From Diphasiastrum complanatum (lineage: Eukaryota > Streptophyta > Lycopodiopsida > Lycopodiales > Lycopodiaceae), in the NCBI GenBank assembly GCA_029204225.1, contig CM055113.1, forward strand, positions 17,460,445 through 17,524,444: a DNA stretch of 64,000 nt, read 5' to 3'. The first letter of the stretch is position 1. Each line of letters begins with the position of its first letter. The position numbers were made by a program, and so were the translations under genes. The notes beneath the pieces are model-generated. The model saw nothing but the letters and a program-made list of their open reading frames with translations. It did no database searches and was not told where the DNA came from. This document shows, piece by piece, positions 3,310 through 55,691 of the stretch.

Positions 3310-4140
3310 AATTGAGTGTTTATAGTTACTTATGAGTTTACCATTGAAAATGAATCTGAAATCTGAAAGTATATCATCTTGTAGGGCAATAGTTTCCGCT
3401 TGATGTAATTTAGACTCCAATCCTCTTCCACCTCAACACATGTCAAAACTGCATCATTGTATACAATTTCAATATTTTTTTGTTTTAAATGTCCACTGGC
3501 TTCCAAGTCTTGATCGAGTGGCACCCATTTACCTTTATTTTTTTTTCCATCTTTGATAATGGAAGCATAAGTTCAGCATTTGTTTTTTAATTTGATAACA
3601 AAAGCAAATGGAAGACATTTTAATTCTGCATTCTATTTCTCCATCTGATCTTTTGTCTCAGCCTTCATCCATAAGTTCAGATAATAAACTATCTGATAAA
3701 TTTTTGCATACAAACATCATTGGGGTTTTGTGTACATTGACACTTGAAAAGAAATCCACAAATATATTCAAAGAAATAAACCAATTGAATCTGACTGTTT
3801 TTTATCTCGTGCTTATTTTTAATGAATTTTTTACATCATTATATAGCTTGCAATAAAATGATTTTGAAATTGCAGCATCTGGAGCAACCCATTCATCACT
3901 TCCAAAACTAGGTAATGGAATTGGGACTATTTGTCCAAAACCTCCTTTTGTATTAGGAATGTACATTGATTCATAAAATAATATCCCACTATCAGCTAGG
4001 TCTTTTGCAGTTTTACCTCTATATTGCAACTGTCCAATATCAATGTGAATAACATCTAACACACTTGCTAGAGATCCACTAAGCTCCCAATCATTTATGT
4101 TGGATGGATATAAATCTGCAAGAGAAAAATAATCAGATTG
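3310..4140 (-). pseudogene. Decayed second copy of the BAH-like gene of the 7.4-16 kb TIR element
   Basis: Read on the minus strand, this stretch encodes a protein closely related to the one at 14373-15139. Matching blocks are LDVIHIDIGQLQYRG (against LDVIHSDVGKLQYRG) near 4015-4060, SKSFYCKLYNDVKNSLKIST near 3805-3865 (against SKSLRCKLLIDIKNAMKIST), and MPLDQDLEASGH near 3490-3525 (against LPLDQDFELNGH). The acceptor-side sequence DLYPS near 4110-4130 is also shared. Reading is interrupted in several places, so it is a remnant. No terminal inverted repeat like the one at 7429 was seen around it. It shows that the gene exists in at least two diverged copies. Function unknown. Confidence 0.75.
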
Positions 4141-4202
4141 GAAAGTTTACTAATAGATATAATGAATGATAAAAATCAAAGTATTGTAAAATATCAATAC
4201 CA

Positions 4203-4429
4203 CACACACTCTCTCTCTCCTCTTTTTTGTACACCCTAAACACACACCCACACTCTCTCTCTTCCCCCTCTCTCTCAACCCTAACACACCATCTCTATCT
4301 ATCTATCTCTCTCTCCCCCTCCCTCCCTCTACCCCTCTCCATTTTTCTAAACTCTACACACACACACACACACACACACACCCTCCCTCTGCTCCTCGAG
4401 CCATTTGCTATGTCTTCTTTCTCCCTTTT

Positions 4430-4484
<55 letters not shown>

Positions 4485-4487
4485 ACA

Positions 4488-4552
<65 letters not shown>

Positions 4553-4567
4553 TCTCTACTCTCTGTC

Positions 4568-4633
<66 letters not shown>

Positions 4634-4650
4634 CTCCCTATTGACAAAAT
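4203..4650. repeat. Compound CT/CA microsatellite
   Basis: Long runs of (CT)n at about 4433-4478 and 4570-4628 flank a (CA)n run at about 4492-4551, with shorter CT/CA tracts from 4205. Open frames across it give only Leu-Ser, Thr-His or Arg-Glu repeats and are not genes. Confidence 0.97.
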
Positions 4651-6699: not shown

Positions 6700-6865
6700 T
6701 TGAGTGAATCACTACAAGAGAGAGATTTGTGAATCACTACAAGAGAGAACTTTGTGAGTTTTTAGAATCAATCAAATCAATTTTCTTGTTTGTAAAAATC
6801 ATATTTTAGTGAATCACTACAAGAGATACCTTTGTGAGTTTCTAGAATCAATTTATGCCATTTGG
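6700..6865 (+). repeat. Short tandem repeat in the copia leader
   Basis: The phrase GTGAATCACTACAAGAGA occurs three times with variation, the last two copies followed by TTTGTGAGTTT and TAGAATCAAT. The spacing is uneven. It is probably a local duplication in the retroelement leader. Confidence 0.7.
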
Positions 6866-7142
6866 AAGGTTAGAATGAAGTTACTAATGGTGTTCCAAGA
6901 TGTTTATGAATTCTTGATTGAAGAAGAAGAAGAACCTCTTGGTGCACAAGAGCTGATTAGATACAAGAAAAAAATCTAGACTAGCAACTTTGTGGGATAT
7001 GGTGAGAATAGCAAAGGTTATAGAGTCTTCAATCCCATTACTAATAAATTTATAGTGAGTAGAAATGTTGTTTTTTATGAAGGACATGCTTGGGAAATGG
7101 ATGATAATGCAGTAACCGCTTTTAAATTTACGAATCCATATT

Positions 7143-7428
7143 TGTGAAAAATTGGCAAAAAGCTAGCTTGGCAATTTCATGTCTTTTATGTTTGTGAGTA
7201 CATTTCACATGTGTGGAGCATGTTCCCACATGTGTAAAATAGTTTATCATAGCTTTAGGAGTTTCATAAAGTTTTTATGTCAAGCTTCGTCGTGTAGAGT
7301 TGTGATAGGGCCAAAAATTGGCATAGATGGCAAATTGGCAAAATCCACATGTAATGCCTCTATTGAGCCAAAAGTGAGTCATGATGGAGGAGCCTCAAGT
7401 CCTTCAAGAAGTACAAAAGTACAAGAAG
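7143..7428 (+). mobile_element. Second copia element, left part (LTR start and start of gag)
   Basis: The sequence starts TGTGAAAAATTGG, matching the LTR starts at 48217 (minus strand) and 53865. It contains two CACATGTG palindromes (near 7208 and 7230), as those LTRs do. It then passes to a gag segment, MEEPQVLQEVQKYKK, just before 7428. The match to the gag at 55400-55460 is clear. It lies inside the older copia remnant and continues at 16023 after the inserted TIR element. Broken. Confidence 0.75.
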
Positions 7429-7463
7429 CATTAGAGGAGTTCTCAATATCAAAAAGACCCTTT
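7429..7463 (+). repeat. Left terminal inverted repeat, 35 bp
   Basis: Begins CATTAGAGGAGTTCTC and ends GACCCTTT. It is a perfect reverse complement of 15988-16022. The flank on its left is copia gag. Confidence 0.95.
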
Positions 7464-7940
7464 AAGGAATGCCATGTAGGATATACAAAAATATCAAGAT
7501 AAATAAAATAATATTGTTTATTTGCTTGCTCACACCACTCCCAAGGCCTCCCCAACTCCCAATGATCTAACCACAGTGTCTATAGTCACAGTTAAGAACT
7601 GTTAACAGTTCGCGGTATAACTTAGCTAAATTCAAAAATATTCCCTCCATTGGTTACGAAAAGGGCAATATTTTCACTGGATCTAGAATATGATCACCAT
7701 CCCCAAATTCGAATCAGGAAAAATTGCAAAATGTTTACATATACATTCCTTCCACGAGAATGGAAATATGAGCGCCAACTACCTATTGGAATGAAAAAAT
7801 GAGCGGCATTTCCAAATTTGAATCAAGCATACAAGCATGGAGATTGGATTGATCGTACATAGTATATAATATAATTAAAAGATGAGTATTTTGTTTTGCT
7901 TCATAGAATCTGGTCATAGTACTTTGATGCAACTGATTAC
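7464..7940. other. Left subterminal noncoding region of the TIR element
   Basis: No gene. It contains paired imperfect repeats: CCAAATTCGAATCA near 7702 against CCAAATTTGAATCA near 7811, and GAATGGAAATATGAGCG near 7759 against GAATGAAAAAATGAGCG near 7790. An inverted motif (AGAACTGTTAACAGTTC) lies near 7594-7610. Subterminal repeats of this kind are common transposase-binding regions in DNA transposons (inference here). Confidence 0.5.
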
Positions 7941-7952
7941 TCTATTATTTTT

Positions 7953-9744
7953 TTGATGATGACATTATATCATCTACATGTGGATATCCCTGTTGATTTG
8001 GCACCTTTGCAGAGAAGAGGAGGCAAAGGAGTTCAAATATCTGCTGAAGATCGTCCTCGTTACAAGGCAGAAGGAAAGAAAAACGTGGATTTGTGGACAG
8101 ATGGAACATTATACCCACAAGATCCAAGCACTTTGACGCATCCCACATTCTCTTCAATAACTCATTTAGTTACATGGATATGCAATGGGCATAGTGGATT
8201 ACTAGGATATTGTGAAAGATTGCAAAACCATGGAAAACAACTTTATATGAATGAAGTTCACTTTTTAGAAGGTGAGTTAATTCGGATATCCTCTTATTAA
8301 CAGAGTAGAGATTGTCATCTCCAAAAGACGTTAGAAGAAAATGAACAACTTAAAAAAAATAATGAATCATTACAAATAGCAATCAATATCAAATCAGAAC
8401 TAGAGCAAATGCAATCAATCTTACAGTCTATTCGTATTGAAAACTTACAATTACTGAAGGATGTGGATTTGGTAAAGAAGAAGGCTGAAAGTAAGAAGCG
8501 AAAGCGACAAAGTTGCAAGGATATTCAAACGCTTTCAAAAGGAGGTTATCGAAATAGAAGGATCCGTGCATTCAAGTAACCATATTCTAAATTTTGTAAG
8601 TTTTTCAATGACATTTGGATTTAATTTCAGCTATGGTGATATTCTGTTAACTATCTGTTTTTTTTGCAGATCTGCATTAGTAGCTCCTCGGAATATTAAA
8701 GACAATGTTTCACTAGGAATGTCATTGGGCACAATATTGACTTGCAAATCCACTGAGCGTATCATGATGAACAATAGGATTTCAAATGTAAAGTGTAAAA
8801 TAGCAGAGTCTTTGATGGTGGACATTCAAAATATTTTAGATAAGACTATAGTTCAGGGTGCTTGTGATTTTTCAGGTATTAGTAGGGAAGCATATGCAAC
8901 AATATTTAAACTAATCAGAGAAACTTTTAAGCAAGTTCAAATTAGAAAAGTCCCAATCCCTAGGACATATCACTTGAAGAAAGAGAGGGATACATTAAAC
9001 ATAGGTATGCATAAGATCACTGGAACTCCATTTCATATTGAGGAGGTGTATGAAACTGATGGAAGATCGATATTCTATAATTCATCAAACAATTTATTTG
9101 TTGATCTAAATTACTTGCTGAGATACATCGTCACATTCTATGATATAACCTATGAAAAGGTGAATGGCAAAATAATCGTCAAAATTCAAAAAGATGAAAA
9201 GCTTTCAAGAAAGAATGGGAACATGCCAACTAAGCCAAGCATAGGGGGAGCAAAAGCACGTCGTTTTCTATCAAATCATACTGGTAAGGCTTCTAATATT
9301 CAACACTCAGTCTGGACAGATATTATTGCTGCCACTCAGGACTTCGAGAAAGACGGCAAAACCAGATTACTAAAAGTTGATGTATGGAAAAAGCTTGATA
9401 GTATGATTGCTATTTTAAGAAAAAAAAATACTCTGATATTGATAAGAAAGTTGTCCAAATGACTTGTGTCGAGTTTGTTAATGCAATATCAAAAGCATGG
9501 AGAGAAGATCACATCACTCATTACATGGTTAGTATACAATTTTCAACATGCTTTCAAATTTTCATATATATTTAGATCCAAACATAAGATTAACATTATG
9601 ATTTTGACATATGCAGCACATACTAAGAGATTATACAACATGCATTTCATCGAAATACACAACATGGAGGAACCAATGAAAAACAAAACTACATTTGTCA
9701 ATTGTTTCAATGGTTCTACCGCAGAGTTCAGATTCGACATATAA
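7953..9744 (+). CDS. Unrecognised coiled-coil protein of the TIR element (gene A)
   Basis: I do not recognise this protein. The first exon ends at 8575 before GTAACC and the next starts at 8670 after TTTTTTTTGCAG; the phase is kept across the join (FK then SALVAPRN). The start is uncertain; 7953 is the first ATG of the frame. Visible parts: an N-terminal segment with NVDLWTDGTLYPQDP; a heptad-rich coiled coil about 8330-8460 (LEENEQLKKNNESLQ); a basic nuclear-type stretch KKKAESKKRKR near 8475-8505; then a globular-looking region of about 250 residues (8670-9460) with FSGISREAYATIFKLI and NLFVDLNYLLRYIV. Reading moves to another frame near 9420-9470, and a further small exon may start after ATATGCAG near 9616. 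The frame is interrupted at least twice. As the longest unknown protein of the element it could be the mobility protein, but no catalytic motif supports that. Confidence 0.55.
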
Positions 9745-9924
9745 CAAATTCCACACAATACAACAAGTTTAGAAAAGCATGCAAGTTTATACAGGAAGAG
9801 AAAATTAGATGATTGCTGAGTAGAAGGTCATCATGACATGTTCAGAATTGCTTTGCAAAGTCATTGAACAAGAGAGGAGCAATACCCAATGTAAATGTAT
9901 TGATTGTATTATACAAAGTGTCAA

Positions 9925-10859
9925 CTATTCATCATCAGATCTTGTATCAGATTCTATGGTAGTATTGTCATGAAGAAATTCTCTGCTAGCGTATGCATCT
10001 AATAGATGTGCATTATCCTTATTTCCACTAAGCTCAATATAAGTGGAATACAATGAATAATGGGAGCTCCTTAAAGGAACATTCCCATTAGTAAAGCCTA
10101 AAATGTTCAAAACATAAGATCTTTTGACAAAAATGATCTTATTTTTCTTAACAAATTTATGTCCTCCTAGATAAAATGATAGAGCTTTAACTGCCATTAT
10201 AAGACTCTCCCCGACTGGGCTCAGCTTGGAATGAGCAATACAGATCTCATTCTTCAAGAAATGTCGAAGATAGTGGCCCAGTCCACTGTCCCTCTGGAAC
10301 GAGGATGCGTGTTGTCTGAAACCACCTCGTCTCGCAGCAAAATCATCTATTATGAGAGCATCCTGCAATAGGAAATATGCTAGCAAAAACACATTCAGTG
10401 ATTGAAAACATTCAAATGCAAGGAAGATTAAACACTTACACATTCTTTATCATCAGCATCAACTAGATCATAATGATCAATATAATGACCACGTACTGAA
10501 GTGGAATCATCAGTGAAATGTATTAATGATGGACGAGGGAAGCCCATCTGGGATTGAAATGCCGTGAATTCTTCATCGGATGGTCTGCCTCACCCATCCT
10601 CAGCTATATTTGATAAAGTCTTATTCAGGCATTCTTCACCGGTCATAAGACCCTCCTCATCATCAAAATCAATACCAGCAACAAGGTCATCTGTCTCAAA
10701 ATCTACAAAGTCGGAGAATTCAAAAATTGTGCCGAATAATAAACATAGAACCTCGTCCTCACGATAGTCAAAAAATTTACATAAATCAGCAGTAGTGAAA
10801 TATACATCGTCATTAATATAATATACAGACAAATTGAAAAGACATTTCAAATCCTCCAT
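9925..10859 (-). CDS. Unrecognised acidic protein of the TIR element (gene B)
   Basis: Read on the minus strand from 10859, with an intron at 10439-10363 (donor GTAAGT, acceptor ATTGCAG). The first exon part is very acidic (FEFSDFVDFETDDLV and IDFDDEEGLMTGEE); acidic residues continue to the splice site (DLVDADDKEC). The second exon (10362-9925) carries DDFAARRGGFRQHASS, a basic run GGHKFVKKNKIIFVKR and an acidic C-terminus ending TRSDDE. No family recognised. Acidic proteins beside a histone gene invite the idea of a histone chaperone or binding partner, but that is only inference from context. The frame is interrupted near 10590 and the true start may lie further upstream, possibly joining gene C. 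Confidence 0.5.
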
Positions 10860-10980
10860 AGATTTGGATTCATCATCAGATGTATTTTAGCCAATGAAAG
10901 AATCCTAGAGAACATCAGTATTTAAATCAATGAAGTCACTTTCTTTATCAAGAGTGCCGATAAGAAAGTGACCGATATCG

Positions 10981-11436
10981 CTAATGGCTGACTGAACAGA
11001 GGACAAAAGGAGGGTCAGCAACAGGAACTTCATCATCATCTGAGATCTGAACTAAAAGAAAAAGTACGAAACCACTTTGATATTCAACCAATCGACATTT
11101 CTTGTTGCAATACGGACACAGAGAACTACTTTTGAAAAGATCAAACAATTTGGTGAACATTCTATCTAGTCTATGTCTAAAAGCGGGGAAGAAATGAACA
11201 AGATCAGTATAATGCATGTACTGGAGTTGACCTATGGAGAAAACAGACTTGCTAAGTATATCTCTGAATCTGACATAATGTTCATAAAATACGTTAGAAT
11301 TTGGTTGTGCAGTCCTGAAAACATGTAGATATGGCCTGAATAGACTGTGGAAGTAGTCTAGGTTTTCAGTAATCCCATATTCACTCAGAAATGAACTCAA
11401 GCCTGATTCTCGTGAGGATGATGAAGAAGAGGCCAT
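10981..11436 (-). CDS. Small protein with a CxxC pair (gene C), possibly the first exon of gene B
   Basis: Minus-strand frame starting at the ATG at 11436 (MASSSSSSRESGLSSFL), preferred over the upstream ATG at 11484 because the serine run looks like a natural N-terminus. It is about 150 residues, with aromatic-rich helices (NLDYFHSLFRPYLHVF, MHYTDLVHFFPAFRHRLD) and CPYCNKKC, a possible half zinc-binding site. It shares orientation with gene B 120 bases downstream, so the two may form one spliced gene. It is divergent from the H3 gene across a CACGTG-rich spacer. Function unknown. Confidence 0.5.
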   Translation of the reverse strand: MASSSSSSRESGLSSFLSEYGITENLDYFHSLFRPYLHVFRTAQPNSNVFYEHYVRFRDILSKSVFSIGQLQYMHYTDLVHFFPAFRHRLDRMFTKLFDLFKSSSLCPYCNKKCRLVEYQSGFVLFLLVQISDDDEVPVADPPFVLCSVSH

Positions 11437-11439
11437 GGC

Positions 11440-12250
11440 AGTAGCGTGAATATCGCACTTGTGCACGCAAGAGAACTGAACCAAAACTAACTATCAAAAT
11501 GGTGCAGAAGATGGATATGTACGGCAGACAGATACAGAATATTGCACTTGTGTGCGAGTAGGTATACTTGCAAGCAAACAGACAACAATGAGCACGCACA
11601 AAAGCGATATGTTGCGAATTTCGAGAACGCAAAAGGTAAAAAATATTCGGTTTCCATGCCATTTATACTAATTTTTTGCACGTGTGGTCAATGGACTTAC
11701 GACACGTCTACTTTCAAATAACAAGCGCAGGCACGTGTGAGATGACACCTACACACATGTGAAATGACACCTGAACACGTGTTGCGTGTTTATTCGATTG
11801 CTCATAAACACGTGTCGCTCTGGCATTCGATCGTACAAATCCCACACGTGTAATGTGACAAGGTGACATGTGTCGCTTGCTCATTTGTCCGTACAACTCC
11901 CACACGTGTGACAGGACGTTCTTTCGCACGTGAGAACCCCGATATAAAATCACAAATTTCGATGAATTTTTTTCACTTTTTTTTTTTCGCTCCGCAAATC
12001 GCATTTGTACGCGCCCTTCACAATCGAAATTCCTCCTACTGCCTTCCATGCGCACAGGTCCGATACGTCTGCCTACGTGTCACCTCATATCGCACTTGTG
12101 CATCTTTCCTCAAATCGAATCGTTCTCTCTGATATTCGGCTCGCATAGGTCCGATATACCGTACATTTTGTCCGTACATAGCGGTCCTTTGTGAGTTCTT
12201 TATCATCCCTTCCTTCTCATCCTAACCTTCACGCACAAGTCCGCTATCAC
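11440..12250. promoter_or_regulatory. Bidirectional promoter region with seven CACGTG boxes
   Basis: Between divergent genes C and H3. CACGTG occurs at 11679, 11732, 11776, 11809, 11845, 11903 and 11927, seven times in about 250 bases, often as CACACGTGTG; CACATGTG variants add to it. A second motif, GCACAAGT(G/C)CG(A/C)TAT, appears in both orientations near 11452, 11543, 12088 and 12232. CACGTG is the G-box/ABRE core bound by plant bZIP and bHLH factors (established knowledge), so light, stress or hormone response is plausible (inference). Confidence 0.65.
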
Positions 12251-12263
12251 ATAGTTCACGCCC

Positions 12264-12554
12264 ATGGATAGGAGAAAGCAGACAAGGAGAGACTTCTTCT
12301 CTCTTGGCTCATCCTCATCTCCTACGGTTGCCATCACACCACCTGCTAGACCTAGAACGCGCAACCGCAGCAGGTGGCTCTCTGAGATACGCAAGTATCA
12401 GAGGTCAAAAGCTCTGTTGATCCCAAGAGCTCCATTCTACCGTGCTGTTCGGAACATAACAAGAAATGATCTCGGACAGCACGTTAGATTCACACCGAGT
12501 GCTCTTCAGTGCCTTCAGGAGGCTGCTAAAGATTATATTAGCCTTTTTTTTTGA
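12264..12554 (+). CDS. CENH3-like histone H3 protein of the TIR element, N-terminal part
   Basis: Histone-fold protein that would pack DNA in nucleosomes. The N-terminus MDRRKQTRRDF keeps R, K, Q, T and R at the places they hold in canonical H3 (MARTKQTARKS), so the H3K4 position survives while K9 does not. A basic tail with a serine/proline stretch leads to SRWLSEIRKYQRSKALLIP (alpha-N and start of alpha-1). Then FYRAVRNIT and VRFTPSALQCLQEAAKDYI (loop 1 and alpha-2) follow. The pieces LLIP..F...VR.IT and LQEAA.DY are closer to plant CENH3 than to canonical H3, as far as I recall those families. The start at 12264 is preferred because it gives the H3-like N-terminus. The rest of the fold (alpha-3) lies in an overlapping frame that meets this one in a T-rich tract near 12543. 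Confidence 0.85.
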   Translation: MDRRKQTRRDFFSLGSSSSPTVAITPPARPRTRNRSRWLSEIRKYQRSKALLIPRAPFYRAVRNITRNDLGQHVRFTPSALQCLQEAAKDYISLFF

Positions 12555-13256
12555 GGATTTTTTTTTGCTTGCCATCCATACCAAGAGGGTTACCATAATG
12601 CCCAATGATTTTCAGCTTCTGATGAGAATGAGGGATAGGTACTGTAGGTTACATGTATCTCAACCTACTACTCCTAGACCAACTCCTGTAAATAGGACCC
12701 ATCTTCCTACAAAGCATCCTAGGAAGCAGATAGCCCCTAAGCGTGCTCCTAAGAAAGTGAAGCCTATCCCAGAATCCATTGTAGATAATGCTGTTGTTGA
12801 TAATGCTGTAAATATAGCTACCTCTATTTTGGATACTCCTATAATTGCTGTAGATACTACACATCCACCTCCTCCTCCTCCTCCTCCTCCTCCCAATTTC
12901 TATACATATATAGATTCAGATGATTATCTTAGATTTGAGAAAGACATATCGGATGCTATAGATACAATTGGTACTCCTTTTTGTTTTAGACTAGAAGAAC
13001 TTGATTTTAGTATTAATTATAGAGTTCTAGATTGCCTGGATCTCAAAGACAGACGGGCTTCAATCAGTGATCCTGTGATAGAGTCTGAGCTGACACTCTT
13101 GCAATTTGACATTGCAAGAGATTCATCAAACGAGTTGTTGGTGTTGAGTAACTTTCTGCTCCAAGCCTTCAAGGAGAATAATGACACATTGTCACAGTGT
13201 CTGACAAGTGGATTCACACCAGCAACAAAGTATCTGGTCATTCCTTATCATACCAA
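12466..13256 (+). CDS. CENH3-like protein, end of histone fold plus basic/proline-rich linker
   Basis: The useful part begins near 12555 with EDFFLLAIHTKRVTIMPNDF, matching H3/CENH3 loop 2 and alpha-3 (canonical LCAIHAKRVTIMPKDIQL). A normal H3 ends soon after, but this frame continues for more than 200 residues. It has a lysine/arginine/proline-rich segment (PRKQIAPKRAPKKVKPIP near 12719-12773), a run of ten prolines near 12866-12894, and an acidic region. A region ending KYLVIPYHT follows, which resembles the 'viP.h' strand that precedes the catalytic His in C48 proteases. A donor GTAAGA follows at 13257. The fusion of an H3 fold to a protease-like tail is very unusual. The coding frame has a small number of breaks overall. 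Confidence 0.75.
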
Positions 13257-13363
13257 GTAAGATATATTAAGTGGTTCTTTTTGTTTTATGCATTAACATT
13301 GATATTTTCAATTTAAATAGTTCTCAGAATTGTCGCTAAAGTACTTTCAATCTTATTTTGCAG

Positions 13364-13955
13364 TGACCACTAGAGTTTAAACCTGATCTCTATTAAGAGA
13401 TCTGTAAATAATATCATTAAATGTTCTTGTGTCAAGATGAATTCGACGAGAAATACGCATAAGGATGTAGATATATTCATTCCATATCTAAGTAAATATA
13501 TTCCTACAAACATTCCCCATTCCGTGGACTGGCAGATCGTCAGCTTGGAGGTAAACTCTGTCTTTCTTAATAGCATTTTGAAATCAGTATTCTAATGAAA
13601 TATTTTCAATCTAATTCATTCTGTTTCATAATTGATTTCTTGTGTGCTGAATTATTTTGCAGTCACCCCAGCAAAATGATTCATTCAACTGTGGGTGGTA
13701 CATATTGTACAATGCCAAGTTGTTTTTTGAGTGGTTCATCCTTTAACAAGATGTTGATATTTCTAAGGTAATAAATTCTGTTTATTCTTATTTTGGAATC
13801 ATGATTAGTTTTCTATTCTGGTGATGTTATTGGCCATTACTAATACATGAATGTTCTATTTTGCAGTTTACACTTCCTGAGTACACATCAAGCCAGCTGT
13901 ACAGATTTAGACAAGAAATTATCCTGAGTATACTGGCTAGGGCAAGGCTTTAGCC
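13364..13955 (+). CDS. C48 (ULP1/SENP-like) cysteine-protease domain, three exons continuing the H3 protein
   Basis: Exons 13364-13550, 13663-13767 and 13867-about 13955, each bounded by GT and TTGCAG/TTTTGCAG and in phase with one another and with the exon ending at 13256. The middle exon carries SPQQNDSFNCGWYILYNAK, the Gln-to-Cys catalytic block of C48 peptidases (family pattern PQQ.N..DCG). The first carries DVDIFIPYLSKYIP and HSVDWQIVSLE, matching the 'I..yL...DW' segment before the block, and a His near its start fits the catalytic His. ULP1/SENP enzymes cut SUMO and related modifiers (known). C48-like domains are carried by several plant DNA transposons (known). Joined to a histone fold, the protease could act on chromatin proteins (inference). 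Adenain-type C5 proteases share the fold and are the main alternative. Confidence 0.7.
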
Positions 13956-14372
13956 TTCCGTTATTGATGATGGTGCAAAGGATGATGTAGTTGTACTAAT
14001 TTAAGATCAGAAAAAATATAGATAGCATAGAACAAAAATACATGTATAGACTTCATAGAAAAATATACATTGATATATCAAATGCTGCTCCAGTTTATGA
14101 ATTTGGGAGCACAAAATACATGTATAGATGCCCAACTTGGGCTTTCATTTATTGAATGAAAGGGTGTATACACAGATTTTTACTAAAGTTTATTTGAAAC
14201 TATTGTTCTCCCACAATGGTGATTGTTGTAGGTAGATCTTTGCAGCACGTTATCAGCTCCTATCTTTTTCGCATCTGTGAGATGGCAAATATTAGTGAAT
14301 GTGCAATTGTAAATGATGACATTTTCTAATATTTTGTTCTATTTTGAAATGGCAATAAACATAAAGTACTTA
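13956..14372. other. Convergent spacer between the H3/C48 gene and gene D
   Basis: No clear gene. AT-rich, with a duplicated ACATGTATAGA phrase (near 14040 and 14118). It probably holds the two 3' ends; a last minus-strand exon of gene D may lie near 14190-14280, but this is not supported. Confidence 0.35.
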
Positions 14373-15568
14373 CGAGTATTCCGTTGATGATAAATCTGAA
14401 ATATGTTGGTAGATTGGTTTGTAATAGCATGAGCTCTGTTCTGATAAAATCAAGCTTCCAGTGCTCTTCCACCTCAACCATAGTCAAATATTCCTCATTG
14501 TAGATAATGCTTATCTCCATTTGGTTTGTGTGACCATTTAGTTCAAAGTCTTGATCCAGTGGTAGCCATGTACCTTCAATTTTCTTGTATCTCTGGTAGC
14601 TAAATGTGAGACCGAGCATTTGCTTTTCGATATGATAATGAAAGATCATTGAGGACTTTTTAATCCTGCATTCTATGTCATTATTTGTTTTACTATCCCA
14701 GCCTTGATCCATGAGATCTGACAAAGTCTCATCTGATAAATCCTTGCAAATAAATAAAGTTGGTGTCCTACGAATACTAGCACTCGAGAAAAAATCAACA
14801 AATGTATGCAATGAGATAAACCAACTTAGGTGAACAATTTTGGAGCCTGTGCTTATCTTCATAGCATTTTTAATATCAATAAGTAGCTTGCATCTCAAGG
14901 ATTTAGAAACAATGCTGTCATCACTCTGAAAACTAGGCAATGGAATTGCTTCGAGCTTGCCAAAACCTCCATCTGTTTGTGGCGTATATAAAGATTCATA
15001 AAAATAGATACCACAATCTGCAAGTTCCTTTGGCTTCTTCCTCTATATTGTAGCTTTCCAACATCAGAGTGAATCACGTCTAATATCCCTGCAAGTGATT
15101 GTGCAGGCTCTCATTCACTTATGCATGATGGATATAAATCTGAAAGAAAAAAACAATGGTGAAGCATTTAAATCATAATCTGAAGAGCATCAATAAAGGA
15201 AATCACCTATGATTGTTGTAGAGTGCATATGTTTTGATATACTTACAATTACATTTTTGATGATCATGAGGATTGATATCATGTACTTTGATTTCTGAAT
15301 GCATATATACATGTTGCACTAAGACTTCTGATATCGATTGACCTCTCGGGGTAGTCTTAAACTCCAAAATTTTTACTTTCCAATAAGATTTGTAGGTCAT
15401 TTTTGCTCTTTTCTTTTGTCGAAAATTGCCCTTTGATGATGGATGCAACAATACCCATGAGTTCTTCGTATATTTTGTTGGCTTCCAGTTATCAGCTTCA
15501 TCTTTCTCATTGTAAAGAATCACGGAATCGATTGTAGATCCGGGTCTCTTCGCCATTGCTATTTTCAA
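14373..15568 (-). CDS. Gene D of the TIR element: unrecognised protein, BAH-like first exon
   Basis: Minus strand. Exon 1 runs from ATG 15568 (or 15556) to 15247, where GTAAGT follows; exon 2 starts at 15139 after a pyrimidine tract ending TTTCAG. A second donor (GTAAGT) at 14372 suggests another exon downstream. Exon 1 encodes about 100 residues with NSWVLLHPSS, YKSYWKVKILEF and SEVLVQHVYMHSEI; this order of strands is loosely like a BAH domain (chromatin reader), but the call is weak. Exon 2 carries LDVIHSDVGKLQYRG, SLRCKLLIDIKNAMKIST, HTFVDFFSSAS and LPLDQDFELNGH. A diverged copy of exon 2 lies at 3310-4140, so the protein belongs to a repeated family. The frame is interrupted in this copy. 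Confidence 0.55.
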
Positions 15569-15569
15569 A

Positions 15570-15987
15570 GCTTGGGCGCCAAAAATCTCTCTGATATGTT
15601 ACTTGATTTTAATTTTTCGTATCACATTTAATCTAATGTGAATGCCAACATAGTCATAGTTACTGCGTATACCATATTTTATATAACTGTACATACTATA
15701 TTTCTATAACTGTAACTAGTATAGTTAGAAAATTTCATTATACTAACCAGCATAGTAAAGTAAATTTAACTTGAGATATTGACGTCGGGCAGATTAGCAC
15801 GTGTCGGGCAGGAAGAAGAAACCAATGGGATACGTCCATGCTGCCCGGACAGAAATTTCAAAGTTTTCTATATTGCATTTTTATTTTTTAGTTAATTTGA
15901 ACTACGTTACGTAGATTTCAAATCTGTGCATTTTGATTGGGCCTGGTGACGGTCGAAACTAAAGAAAAAAAATAAAAGTATCTTTAC
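15570..15987. other. Right subterminal noncoding region of the TIR element
   Basis: No gene. GTCGGGCAG occurs twice (near 15785 and 15806) and once inverted (CTGCCCGGAC near 15841). TATAACTGTA is repeated near 15680 and 15705. A CACGTG box lies near 15800. It could hold transposase-binding sites and the promoter of gene D. Confidence 0.45.
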
Positions 15988-16022
15988 AAAGGGTCTTTTT
16001 GATATTGAGAACTCCTCTAATG
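15988..16022 (-). repeat. Right terminal inverted repeat, 35 bp
   Basis: Perfect reverse complement of 7429-7463, ending CTCCTCTAATG. Immediately followed by copia gag sequence AGAGCTAGGATGG. Confidence 0.95.
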
Positions 16023-17062
16023 AGAGCTAGGATGGCTCTCCACTTTATCAAGATGAATCTCTCTAATGAGATTTTGGGAGAGATTGGTGGTTGCAACTCG
16101 GCCAAGCAAGCTTGGGATACTCTCAAAGCTATTTATGAAGCCAAAAATACCTCTAGGCTCCTCACTCTTAGAAATCAAATCTTCCAAAGTTCTGAAAAGA
16201 GTGATGAGAGTGTCGCTAATTATGTGTTGAGAGTGAAAGATACTCATAGGGAGCTTGCTTGCATTGGAGAATCTTTTAATCAAAGTGAGCTAGTCCAAGT
16301 CATACTTAATGGCTTGAGAGATGAGTATGAGAACCTTGTCCAATCCTATGCCATCGAGGAGGAGTCTTTGCAAGGAGTGCTAATGGCTGAAGAATCAAGG
16401 CATGAGAACAAGCTATTAAGGATGGACAAATTATCACTCAATCACAATGGTGAAGACAAAGCTTTATTTGCCAAGCACAAAGAGAGGAGCAAAAAGCAAC
16501 ACCAACACTTCTCTAAGGACAAAGCAAAAGACCAAGATGAAGAGGATGATGATTCCTCTCAATATTCTAATTCAAAGAAGAAGAAAAAAGATGTTAAGTG
16601 CTTCTTTTGTGGCAAGAAAGGCCACTATGCCACCAATTGCTTCGAGAAGAAAAACCAATTCAAGCAAGCCAACATCTCTCATGAGAAAGAAGACTTTATT
16701 GCAAGTGATGGAGAATGCTCACTTATGACATCAAAATTCTCCTCTTCCACCTTCAAGATGGATGACTCTTGGTATATTGATAGTGGAGCATCTTCACATA
16801 TGTGTAGCTCCAAGGATTCTTTTCCAACTATTATGCCTTATGAAGTAATCAAGAAGACCATATATATTGCAAGTGATCAAGAGTGCAAAATTGAAGGAGT
16901 AGGGACTATTCCATTGAAGCTTGCATCATCAAAAGTTCTATCTCTTCAAGAGGCTATTTTTGTTACCAAGATTACAAAGAATCTTATAAGTGTTGGCAAA
17001 TTACTTGATGGTGGCCTTGATGTCAATTTCCATATTGACAATTGTGTGATCAAAGAAGGATG
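16023..17062 (+). mobile_element. Second copia element, right part (gag and protease)
   Basis: Continuation of the gag broken off at 7428. It shows RARMALHFIKMNLSNEI, a CCHC zinc knuckle CFFCGKKGHYATNC near 16600-16640, and the aspartic-protease motif WYIDSGASSHMC near 16770-16805. LISVGKLLDGGLDV follows near 16985-17025. Well preserved for about 1 kb, then sequence similarity stops near 17062, so integrase, RT and RNase H are absent. The element is broken. Confidence 0.93.
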
Positions 17063-17066
17063 GTGA

Positions 17067-43915: not shown

Positions 43916-46900
43916 CAAATTCCTATTTTTAGTCCATAAAGACTCTTCTTCAAGAGACACACCTTGTCTTCTTCTCCATCTTTGATGAAGCCCTCGGGTT
44001 GGCACATGTAGATTTCCTCTTCCAAGAATCCATTCAAGAAAGCATTTGTCACATCAAGTTGTAAGAGCTCCCATTTGAAAGAAGTCGCAAGACATATGAT
44101 TAATCTAATGGTCACAAGCTTTGCAGTAGGTGCAAAGGTTTCATCATAATCTATGACTTTGACTTACAAAAAACCTTTTGCTACAAGTCTAGCTTTGTAC
44201 TTATGAATGGAACCATCTTGATTATATTTCAATCTATCTATCCATTTACAAGTAAGAGGCTTCTTTCCATAAGGTAAATTAACAAGTTTCCAAGTTTGAT
44301 TTTCCAACAATGCATCAAACTCTACTTGCATAGCTTTCCTCCAATATTAAGACTTATTTGCTTCCTCAAAACTAGTTGGTTCTTCAAGCATAGTAGTCAA
44401 GAAAGTATAAGAGTTGAGTAGTTGAGAATCTTCCCTTTGCTCCCCTTTGTCACTATAAGTGAGCCTTGATGGCTCAATCTTTGTCCTTGTTGATCTTCTT
44501 GGCACCCTTGGACTTGGAGTAGGTTCCACTTGGTCTTCATCTTCATGAAGCTCCTCCTCGGCCATAGCATGATCTTTGAAAAGTTGAGTGTTGTTGGAAG
44601 TCACCTTTCCTTTGGCTTGAAGAGATTCACCAAAAAGTACATCTCTACTAGCAACAACTTTTTTTGTAATAGGATTATATATCCTATAAGCTTTCTTACT
44701 TTCACTATAACCAACAAAGATGCCTTTGAAAGAAGTCGCATCTTCCTTTTTCCTTGTTTCTAAAGGAATATGTACATAACAAGTACATCCAAAAACTTTC
44801 AAATCACTAAGATTTGGCTTTTTGCCAAACAATACTTCATAAGGTGTAAGTCCTTTAATGGCACTATTAGTCATTCTATTACAAACAAAGTTTGCACATA
44901 AAATAGCTTCTCCCCAAAATGAAATAGGAAGAGATGCATCTAATCTCATAGCTTTAGCACACTCACATAGTGTCCTATTCTTTCTCTCAACTACTCCATT
45001 TTGTTGTGGAGTATATGTACAAGTAAACTCTCTCTTTATGCCATTAGTTTCATAAAACTCTTTCATCCTATTGGAGATGTACTCCCCTGCATTATCACTT
45101 CTTAATACTTTCAAGCTAATATTAAGTTGCTTTTCCACAAGTGTTTTGAACTTTACAAAGGACTCAAAAATTCCACTTTTCTTAGACAAGAGATAAACCC
45201 AAGAGTATCTTGATTTATCATCAATAAAAGTGACATACATAAGAGCTCCACCATTTGATTCATGTGAAAATGAATGAACATCCGAGTGTATAAGGTCAAG
45301 AGGAGAGTTAGATCTTATCAAAGATCTCTTGAAAGGAAGCTTATGAGATTTGGAGAGTCCACAAGCTTCACAAAGCTTGCCACACTTGGATATGGTTTTG
45401 GGAAGTCCTCTTGCTAGCTCCTTTGTCACCATGGTCTCCATATCTTTGTAGTTAGGATGGCCTAACCTTTTGTGCCATAATTCCACTTGAGTGAGCTCCT
45501 CCCTTGCCATGTTCACACTTCCAACCATCACATTAGCATCCAATTTGAATAACCTCCCTTGCTTGAAACCACTAGCAATACATTTTCCATTTTTCAAGAT
45601 AGAACATGCTCCATGCTTGAAATGTACATCTAATCCACTATCCATAAGTTGTCCTACACTCAACAAGTTCTTTGTAATTGAAGGTACATAAGGAACATTG
45701 TCTAGATCTACTTTTTTAGATGATCCTAGACATAAAGGAATGGATACAACACCTACAATCTCACATTCTTGATCACTTGCAGTGAAGATAAATCTCTTAG
45801 AACTATTGTAAGAAAGTAGATTAGAAAAGTAGTCTTTTTGGTGAGTCATGTGAGAGCTTGCCCCACTACCAATCCACCAAGTGTCTTGATTAGATGTTTG
45901 TGGTGAGGATACCATCAAAGATAGATTGCCTTCTTCCTCCTCCTTAAGCACAAGATTGCCTTGATTGTCCTTCTCTTGGGCATTCTTCTTCTTGTAGCAC
46001 TCAGATGCAAAATGTCCCTTTTTTCCACAAAAAAAACATTTTAGCTTCTTCTTGTCCTTCTTGCTCTTGCCTTTAGAACTTGATGCTCCATCTTTGTTCT
46101 CCATCTCCATGTCTTGAGTCTTCTTGGATGGAAACTTCTTCTTCTTGCCTTTCAAAGAAAAGTTAGCTTTTTCATCACCATCATTCAAAGATAAGGAACT
46201 CATCCTACTTTTGATATGAAACATTCTACTCTCCTCACTAACAAGCACACTTTGAAGTTTTTCAATACTAGAAAGTGAATCTTGAATAGCAAAGGTTTGA
46301 ACAATATTGGAATAATCATCTCCTAATCCATCCAAAATGATTTGAACTAATTCATCATCTTTGATTTTATCATCTATAGAAGACAACTCCTTATTCAAAC
46401 ATTTGATCCTAAAGACATAATTTTGGGCACTTTCAATACTTCCTTTCATGCTTTGAAGGATTTGATTCCTAAGCATGAGTATCCTTGAAGTGTTCTTGGA
46501 TCCATAAATGGCTTTAATGAATCCCATGCCTCTTTGGATGTGGTACAAGATGAGATTTCTTTCAAAAGTTCATTACTTACATTTATTTTTATGCAATGTG
46601 ATGCAACTCTACATCTCTTTTTGTACTTAACAAACTCAACTCCTCCTTGAGGTTCTACTTCCACCTCAAGTACTATTTCATAAAGATCATGAAGTACAAG
46701 CAAAGACTCCATTTGAACTATCCAAGTAGCATAATTAGTGGATGTAAGTCTTTCACTAGCTTCAAGCAAAAGACCACCCATTGATGCCATTTTTTAATGT
46801 GAAAAAGCACTAGAAACTCTTATGGTTTCTCTAAGAGATCTGAACCTAAGGTCTTCTAGCAATTTAGAAAGCTTATAGACCCAATCCTATCACTCATGAA

Positions 46901-47394: not shown

Positions 47395-48217
47395 TGTGCA
47401 AAAAGTACAAAAAGGACCAAGAGTGGATCCTAATCTGATCCTCAAGAGGGATTGGTTGTCAGATTACTTGATCTATTAATCTACTTGAGATTAAGATCAA
47501 TCTAGATCAATTCTAGACACAAAATCCTAACAAGAACAATTATTAATTGAAGGTAGGTGTACTTTCTGGTTTCACACATGTGAAACACTGTCTGAGTATG
47601 GACTCCAACCTGAAAATCAAGTACACATTGATAGAACCTCAAAACAATCAAAACAAATGTAGACAAATGGAGAGAATCACTCAAAATTGCTTCCAAAACC
47701 AAGATTGGTGTCTCACATTGATTATGGCCAAATAAGCCTCTATATATACACTTTTGGAGCTCGAGGTACTGATCATGCATCAGATCTCACACATGTGAGG
47801 ATGCCTTGTCACCATCATGCAATTTGACACTTGGATCAAAACTTTCCATTTTGGGCATTTTTGGTCTATTTTCCTACTATATGGAGATCTTCATGGAAAT
47901 CTTCTAGAAGCAAAAACTCGCCTACTTTAGTTATTTCCACATGTGTGAGCTATCCTGTACACATGGGATGTGTCACCTATTCAAAATATTTGGCTCATGC
48001 AATCATTAGATTGGTGCCATGTGTCATATCTCTAGAAAAACTAGTTTTTGGCCATTTTAGCCACTAGAACTTGAATTAAATCATATGTACAGCATATATG
48101 ATTATGTTACATAAAAAGTACACTAGTTTCACACATGGGAATAGGCTCCACACATGTGTGTCTATCCTATATACAAGATTTTTGGCCTCTACCAAGCTTA
48201 TTTTTGCATTTTTCACA
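47395..48217 (-). repeat. 5' LTR of the 43.9-48.2 kb copia element
   Basis: Minus-strand start TGTGAAAAATGC at 48217; end TTTTTGCACA before the primer-binding site. It contains CACATGTG palindromes near 47566, 47786, 47939 and 48153. The start matches the LTRs at 7143 and 53865. Confidence 0.8.
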
Positions 48218-49340
48218 CATACTCCGAATCTGAAAATCCAAAAAGATTAGATGATGATTCCTCATACAATATGCCAAAATATTGAGTTCCAATGATGTAC
48301 CTCAAAACTTGTTTTCCTAGCTTCCAATGCTCCTCACTAGGATCTTGCATGAATTGACTCAATCTTCCAGCACAATAGCTTAGATCTGGTCTAGTAATGG
48401 TTAGATAGACGAGTGAACCAATTAGCTTCTTATAGAGAGTAATGTCCTTGAAGGATCTTTCACTACCTCTTATAGTTAGCTTTACATGAGACTCCATAGG
48501 TGTATAACAAGCTTTTGCATCTACCATATGAGATCTTTCTAGAATAGAATTAGCATACTTCTCTTGAAAAATGAAAGTAGATTGAGAAGATCTAATCACT
48601 TCTATTCCTAAAATGTGATGCGAGTTATCAAGATCATGCACCTCAAATTCCTTCTTAAGAGCAATCTTGATATCCTCCACATCTTGATTATTTCCACCAC
48701 TCAAGATGATATCATCCACATAGATTAGCAAGATGGTAACATCATTTCCAGCAAACCTATAATAAAGTGAATGATCATACTCACTCATAACAAAGCCTTG
48801 AGAGAGTAAAAAAGTGTTGATCTTAGCATACCAACTCCTTGGTGCTTGTTTAAGACCATACAAACTCTTTTGTAGTAGACACACATGATTTGGCTTTGTA
48901 GAGAAAATGTAGCTCTCCGGTTGCTCCATGTACGCTTCCTCCTAAAGGTCACCATTCAAAAAGCATTTGTAATGTCCAATTGCCATAGATCCCATCCATA
49001 AAGAGTAGCAAGTGAGATGATGACTCGAATGCTTACCATCTTTGCCATGTGTGCAAAGGTCTCATCATAGTCAATCCCTTGTTCTTGAGCATATCCTTTT
49101 GCCACTAACCTTGCCTTGTACTTGTTGATAGACCCATCTTGGTTTGTCTTCTCACACTAAGCGATTTTTGGTAATAGATGTAATGAACAAAACATCCTCC
49201 AAATGAACATTCCTATTTGTAGAGAGAGAATTAAGAATTGTGCCATTCCCTTTGATTGCACACTGACCATCATTGGTCGTGTAGATCACCCTCTTGTCAT
49301 CTCCATATGCCAACAAAGAAGTGAAATCCTCTCTTCCCAC
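48218..49340 (-). mobile_element. Ty1/copia fragment: protease scrap, RT, start of RNase H
   Basis: Minus strand. A protease-region scrap (VIYTTNDGQCAIKGNGTI near 49230-49285) lies next to RT sequence (CLLQKSLYGLKQAPRSWY near 48830-48885, LLIYVDDIILSGG near 48700-48740, LGSLVYL-type block near 48400-48450). It ends at the RNase H motif GFSDSEYV, where the LTR of the neighbouring copia starts at 48217. It is the older host of that insertion. Broken and incomplete. Confidence 0.9.
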
Positions 49341-54541: not shown

Positions 54542-55691
54542 TACCTAAGATATCCATGCATACATCAAGAGTGATGAAAAATTTGCCTTGAAATCAAGAT
54601 CTAGAGAGTGTAGTTTTATCTCTAGGGCTATTAAGGGGATTTTAGGTTCAAAATGGATCAAAAGCATATTGGATTGATCCATGCCAGGTACTGTACAGAA
54701 TGTACTGCTTAGGAACATGTGAGATCACCAAAATTTGAATGGTTGGTGTTTCTCCAAGGTAGATTCAAATCGAGTGCTTGACAGCTTGTTGGAAAGCTAA
54801 TGAAGGTAGTTTCTAGTGCAATTGATTTCATGTCAATTGAATGTGTCTTGAGTAGGTTATAGGCTCTCAAAGTGAGGTGGGTAGGGCACCCAACCTGGTT
54901 GGACACATAAAATTTAGGCTCTTGTTTGATCCAAAATTTCAAGAAAAAGCTTGCCAATCTCATCTATTTGGGATCTAGACAATTTTTTGAGGTCATAGCC
55001 ACATAGTTTCATGCAATTCATTTGTATTTTGGTCATTTGTGGATGTTTTGAGTGATTTACATGTGCTTGAGTCAAGTTGACCCAAATTTTGTCCTTGCTT
55101 CATCTTTGGATGAGAGTTTGATCTAGTTTGAGAGAGATTGGTAGAGCTAGTGAGATTGATCTCATACCTAGTTGCAAGATCTCAAATTGGAGTTGGTAGG
55201 ATACCATTATTGAATCCTTTATTGAGAGAGAGAGCAACACTTTTTGATTCATTGCAAGTCAAGTTCTCAAGGGAAGATGGCCTCCATAGGTTCCCTTTTG
55301 TTGGAGCATGGTGAGAGATTGAACACCTCCAATTATGCCATTTGGAAGGTGAGGATAGAGTCCATTTTGGTACTCCAAGATGTGATGGAGATTATGCTAG
55401 GACCTGAGGAGGAGCCTCAAGCACTCCAAGAGGTCCAGAAGTACAAGAAGAGGGCAAGGATGGCCCTACATATTACCAAAATGAATGTTTCCAATGAAGT
55501 ATTGAGGGAGATTGGTCATGCACCTCAGCCAAGGAGGCTTGGGACACATTGAAATCCATCTATGAGGCAAGGAACACATCAAGTTTGCTCACATTGAGGA
55601 ATCAAATCTTTCAAAGCTTCAAAAGGAGCGATGAGAGTGCCTCAAATTATGTTTTGAGATCAAAGATCTTCATAGAGAGCTTGCTTGTATA

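Follow-up and report, generated by a model that had tools for sequence, protein, structure and literature searches.

A histone H3 fold joined to a C48/Ulp1-type domain in a decayed mobile DNA element of Diphasiastrum complanatum

The window, the whole 64-kb stretch of Diphasiastrum complanatum DNA analysed here, contains a decayed mobile DNA element of 8,594 bp (7429-16022), which is bounded by perfect 35-bp terminal inverted repeats (TIRs) and inserted into a copia gag. The left repeat (7429-7463, plus strand, outer end 7429) and the right repeat (15988-16022, minus strand, outer end 16022) are 100% complementary in an inverted-repeat search. They form the sole exact inverted repeat of at least 25 nt in the window when simple sequence, defined as having at most six different dinucleotides, is excluded. 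Between these ends lie pieces of four genes (A to D), the third of which combines a histone H3 fold with a C48/Ulp1-type domain.

The left repeat abuts exactly on a 43-base piece of copia gag (7386-7428, plus strand; 86% identity with 55408-55450), and the same gag resumes beyond the right repeat (16023-17066, plus strand). The two flanks were joined and aligned with an uninterrupted stretch of gag at 55408-55690, which is an empty site by paralogy and not the one originally hit. The alignment spans 285 columns, 218 of them identical, and its two gap positions both lie away from the junction. The element therefore comprises 7429-16022 and shows no visible target-site duplication at 7428/16023, the relative fitting there with 0 bp. 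The insertion site reads AAGAAG|AGAGCT. A target duplication hidden within the terminal repeats was also considered and is ruled out by the end letters. The earlier note had merely asserted a mobile-element setting, which is borne out by the TIRs, the copia gag flanks, and the junction alignment; the bounds of the element, its perfect 35-bp TIRs, the absence of a visible target-site duplication, and the insertion into gag are new. The combination of perfect TIRs and broken genes suggests either a late move of the copy with outside help or a fast decay of its genes.

The left flank (6750-7428) is a patchwork of gag-like (6848-6973) and pol-like (6989-7084) sequence, followed by a stretch at 7272-7372 that resembles 50236-50137 and by the gag piece at 7386-7428.

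Gene A (plus strand, 7920-9462) is represented by the stop-to-stop frames 7920-8300, 8301-8579, and 8476-9462. Gene B (minus strand) runs from an ATG at 11436-11434 (MASSSSSS) down to 9925. Gene D (minus strand, 14326-15556) begins with an open frame at 15556-15206 (MAKRPG..) and continues in a part (15110-14326) that, compared with a second copy of the gene, has an in-frame stop and a change of frame; this second copy lies at a separate, decayed place (3327-4133, minus strand; 68% DNA identity). None of the pieces of genes A, B, and D that were scanned has a match at the curated cut-off (best E values: Pfam, 0.015; PHROGs, 0.016; NCBIfam, 0.021), and neither of two pieces, one each from genes A and D, has a match in the PDB at E 1. 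No transposase was recognised in these pieces with Pfam, PHROGs, or NCBIfam; in a decayed copy such as this, the gene may be missing. Polintons/Mavericks are marked by polymerase, integrase, and capsid genes, and no such families were recognised with Pfam or PHROGs in the pieces scanned, which cover part of the element's frames. Scans for RNA families and tRNAs gave no matches.

The two copies of gene D share 53-58% protein identity and differ at 49 of 201, 41 of 200, and 101 of 201 sites at codon positions 1, 2, and 3, respectively. This is the pattern of a constrained protein and shows that the element family was protein-coding. Constraint is seen in gene D only, and the fusion in gene C is seen as one broken copy; a second copy of gene C was not found elsewhere in the 64 kb. 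The gene D copy at 3327-4133 has stops of its own and adjoins long CT/CA simple repeats (approximately 4200-4640). Between 14326-15110 and 3327-4133, a Trp codon stands opposite a stop once in each direction, the pattern expected from decay through cytosine deamination.

Gene C (12264-13950, plus strand), read through its breaks, gives one protein in which a full H3 fold is followed by a C48/Ulp1 domain. The spliced read-through, with X at the breaks, has 457 residues and matches the Pfam families Histone (3.2e-23, residues 28-124) and Peptidase_C48 (3.8e-6, residues 320-431, profile positions 81-197 of 217), both above the curated cut-off. The C48 match (27.3 bits; cut-off, 20.7) reaches this level in the spliced read-through sequence only. 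The gene opens with an ATG at 12264 and a 38-residue N-terminal tail (12264-12377), followed in frame 1 by the H3 fold from alpha-N to alpha-2 (12378-12551). This frame-1 piece (12264-12551, 96 residues; Pfam Histone, E 9.4e-16; PDB matches to H3 and CENP-A) ends at a TGA stop (12552-12554), with a run of T at the boundary of the two histone frames. Frame 2 then encodes the last part of alpha-2, followed by loop 2 and alpha-3 (12553-12645), in one open frame with a basic, proline-rich linker and the start of the C48 match (12646-13256). On their own, the frame-2 piece (12541-13254; Pfam Histone, E 2.2e-4) and the exon piece 13663-13743 (Peptidase_C48, E 0.011) remain under the curated cut-offs.

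The remainder of the C48 domain is distributed over three further exons. Intron 1 (13257-13363; GTAAGA...TATTTTGCAG) precedes an exon with the putative catalytic His (13364-13550), which is interrupted beside this residue by an in-frame TAG (13371-13373). Intron 2 (13551-13662) is followed by the exon that encodes PQQNDSFNCGW, the Gln/Cys block (13663-13767), with an in-frame TAA at 13744-13746, and intron 3 (13768-13866) by the last exon (13867-13953), whose TAG at 13951-13953 is possibly the true stop. The peptides quoted in the earlier note are present where it placed them, and the three introns that it named have GT/AG ends and compatible phases. By contrast, its description of the gene as all in phase does not hold, with the histone split over two frames at 12552 and stops in the C48 exons at 13371 and 13744. 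Three copies of the 10-mer TATTTTGCAG are present in the 64 kb (both strands), each at a gene C acceptor (13354, 13653, and 13857), and another stretch of 23 nt recurs at equal spacing in introns 1 and 2. Because of these common ends and the stretch common to introns 1 and 2, the introns may have arisen by duplication.

The joining of an H3 fold and a C48 remnant in one gene, which the earlier note had claimed, is nevertheless upheld, with both Pfam domains in the read-through and a single frame across the joint. This open frame (12553-13254, 234 codons) contains the end of alpha-2, alpha-3, and the linker and extends to KYLVIPYHT, where the C48 match begins. The joint is thus independent of splicing. 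No H3-C48 fusion was found among the literature matches listed. Searches of collections poor in plants gave no confirmed relative among viral_contigs, using pieces of the four genes, and no relative among prokaryote contigs.

The read-through histone part has the H3 fold over its whole extent. A PDB search with the read-through histone matched 175 sequences, of which the best 60 are all named H3, H3-like, cnp1, or "histone domain-containing". The best match is the plant H3.1 in 8kcb (73.8 bits), followed by fission-yeast Cnp1 (9lrv, 72.5 bits); with the frame-1 piece alone, Cnp1 comes slightly first (44 vs 41.3 bits). The fold is whole from alpha-N to alpha-3 at about 50% identity, as in canonical plant H3 and centromeric H3 (8kcb, 9lrv), but gene C differs from both in a tail with one Lys, in a P at the place of H3 R63, and in its C-terminal linker and C48 domain. 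The tail starts with MDRRKQTRRD, in which five of the nine residues after Met equal those of H3 (ARTKQTARK), a level reached by 68 of 200,000 tail shuffles. The other basic residues of the tail are Arg; because its sole Lys sits at the H3 K4 place, K9 and K27 are without an equivalent in the tail. When the histone part is predicted with AlphaFold2 from the single sequence, the helices come in an H3-like order, but at a mean pLDDT of 45.6 and a pTM of 0.27 the model is unusable as evidence.

The C48 part has weak PDB matches to Ulp2 (5lnb, E 0.025), Ulp1 (1euv, E 0.033), and SENP8 (E 0.12). The PQQ and NCG blocks line up in all three alignments, and so do the oxyanion Gln and the catalytic Cys. 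The His of gene C aligns with that of Ulp1 only; the alignment with Ulp2 begins after the Ulp2 His. At the place of the catalytic Asp, the low-confidence alignments give Lys against Ulp1 (17 residues past the His) and Asn against Ulp2 (the Asp of FDSLR). Because this place reads Lys or Asn, the domain is perhaps not a protease. In the copy at 12264-13953, it would not be made whole, because stops interrupt it, one of them following the His.

Between the divergently oriented genes B and C lies a region (11437-12263) with seven CACGTG sites and a 44-nt direct repeat. The palindrome CACGTG is a common plant G-box. Seven of its 14 occurrences in the whole window lie at 11434-12263, where 500 first-order Markov simulations gave a mean of 0.52 and a maximum of 3. 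The cluster and the 44-nt repeat are possible self-recognition sites or G-box promoter elements. VANC anti-silencing proteins are described as binding repeated short motifs in the non-coding DNA of their own VANDAL elements and as inducing a loss of methylation there (PMC5735166). By analogy, the CACGTG sites near gene C are putative protein-binding sites.

Gene C apparently encoded a chimera in which a basic linker connects a divergent H3 to a C48/Ulp1-type domain, and we tentatively favour, as the most likely among several explanations, that it served as an accessory anti-silencing protein of the element. An intact protein would enter or sit on the element's nucleosomes via its H3 fold, and a tail without counterparts of K9 and K27 would be unable to carry silencing methylation. 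The C48 part would remove SUMO from local silencing factors or, if catalytically dead, bind SUMO on them. The element would thus stay transcribable. The earlier note had proposed interference with centromeric or sumoylated chromatin; its second half is possible for intact relatives, but its first has no independent support. That gene C is a single gene is argued by the 234-codon frame across the joint and the three matching introns. The codon-position pattern of gene D, the single Lys of the tail at the K4 place, and the CACGTG cluster upstream of gene C also favour the anti-silencing reading; against it stand the single, broken copy of the fusion, the Lys or Asn at the Asp place, and the commonness of CACGTG as a plant G-box.

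The anti-silencing function is proposed by analogy with the VANC proteins of VANDAL elements and not by descent; the comparison is limited to analogy because the pieces scanned gave no recognisable transposase. Eraser and anti-silencing proteins are known from other transposons: fungal transposons carry TET/JBP dioxygenases (PMC12730594), and the Kaonashi (KIU) genes of plants, which belong to non-TIR VANDAL/MULE elements that escape silencing, encode VANC proteins with an Ulp1 domain, whose role there is given as unknown in PMC13317346. Like KIU and VANDAL elements (PMC13317346, PMC5735166), the present element is a plant DNA element with accessory genes, a C48/Ulp1 domain, and short repeated motifs in non-coding DNA. 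It differs from them in its perfect 35-bp TIRs, in the absence of an 8-11-bp target-site duplication and of a recognised MULE transposase, and in having histone H3 as the partner of the C48 domain. A duplication of 8-11 bp is the rule for MULEs, although some MULE groups have none (PMC6446971).

An alternative is that gene C is a captured passenger, in which a fragment of a host H3 gene was joined to the element's C48 gene and is perhaps transcribed but functionless and decaying. The fusion is present as a single, broken copy, and the H3 exon region has a G+C content of 49% (12000-12499), whereas every other 500-base step across 7500-15999 has 32-42%. Moreover, plant transposons commonly capture pieces of host genes (PMC13317346). 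However, a neutral passenger would gather breaks, yet at about 50% identity the fold is whole from alpha-N to alpha-3 and a frame of 234 codons is open over the joint, which makes such an origin unlikely.

Alternatively, a decayed H3 gene might lie beside a separate C48 gene, with an accidental open frame between them. The frame break falls within the histone, and the C48 match leaves profile positions 1-80 uncovered, so that only about a dozen C48 residues share the uninterrupted frame of alpha-3. Against this stands the length of the frame, for which a rough estimate from base composition, made without shuffles, gives a chance of approximately 7e-7 for 234 open codons, and the fact that it continues without loss of phase into exons whose splice sites match. 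Two independent genes are distinctly unlikely.

Still less probable is a histone part derived from CENH3 that would be directed to centromeres or disrupt them, with the C48 part acting on sumoylated kinetochore proteins. Signs of CENH3 are real in the gene C histone (the P of LIP, the A after LIP, and the T of IT in LIP.A.F and IT), LIP and IT being common to it and the plant CENH3s compared, but they are offset by H3-like signs (RF, IMP, and ED). SUMO and ULP1d act on KNL2, the loader of CENH3, in Arabidopsis (PMC12903445). The affinity to CENH3 over canonical H3 that the earlier note had favoured is not supported. Identity to reference sequences is at least as high for canonical H3 (Arabidopsis H3.1, 49/96; H3.3, 48/96) and for Cnp1 (51/93) as for plant CENH3 (maize, 47/97; Arabidopsis, 43/97), with human CENP-A at 41/95 and yeast H3 at 41/96, and the start of the tail is H3-like. 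In a tree of eight rows, gene C has an end branch of 1.99 and no well-supported partner and falls outside the pair of plant CENH3s (98/94); the tree is a weak test, with four of its five inner branches unresolved, a long query branch, and only two plant CENH3s. A centromeric origin was rejected on the whole-domain identities and the tree position.

It is highly improbable that 7429-16022 derives from a linear virus or plasmid that integrated and whose histone part packs DNA: its terminal inverted repeats without a target-site duplication would fit, and some DNA viruses carry histones (PMC9145170), but it contains introns, its four genes have no confirmed relative in viral_contigs in searches with their pieces, and the pieces scanned gave no recognisable family of polymerases or capsid proteins.

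The favoured reading, in which the chimera is an accessory anti-silencing protein, can be set against other mobile elements that share single traits with the present one. Ginger1 elements have TIRs of similar size (44-270 bp) and an Ulp1 domain in an element protein, but there this domain forms the C-terminal end of a Gypsy-integrase-like transposase, in the animal genomes tabulated in PMC2836005, and none such was recognised here. The Cryptons of oomycetes likewise carry a C48 domain; they have a tyrosine recombinase and no TIRs (PMC3212892), whereas the present element has TIRs and no recognised recombinase. Spy elements (PHIS) also make no target-site duplication, but they insert within AAATTT and have one DDE transposase (PMC4482050), whereas here the site is AAGAAG|AGAGCT and no such transposase was recognised.

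Possible, if somewhat doubtful, is the broader proposal that the locus represents an undescribed family of plant DNA transposons with perfect short TIRs, no target-site duplication, and an H3 variant of its own joined to a SUMO-directed domain, that is, a nucleosome component whose tail would be unable to carry K9/K27 silencing marks. If true, the element would follow a different strategy, in which it provides a nucleosome part of its own and does not edit the marks of the host, and it would be a natural tool to test the need for H3K9 methylation and SUMO in plant transposon silencing. The Ulp1 domain of KIU elements raises the same question. It is unusual to see the fusion, its host element, and the lack of a target duplication in combination; the broken copy limits inference.

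Elsewhere in the window, the minus strand contains an uninterrupted copia frame of 740 codons (44347-46569), which is gag-to-integrase-like, and a separate reverse-transcriptase-like frame is present at 48213-48941. The copia genes and the style of the introns are both plant-like. Reassigned stop codons were considered and rejected, as the 740-codon copia frame reads in the standard code.
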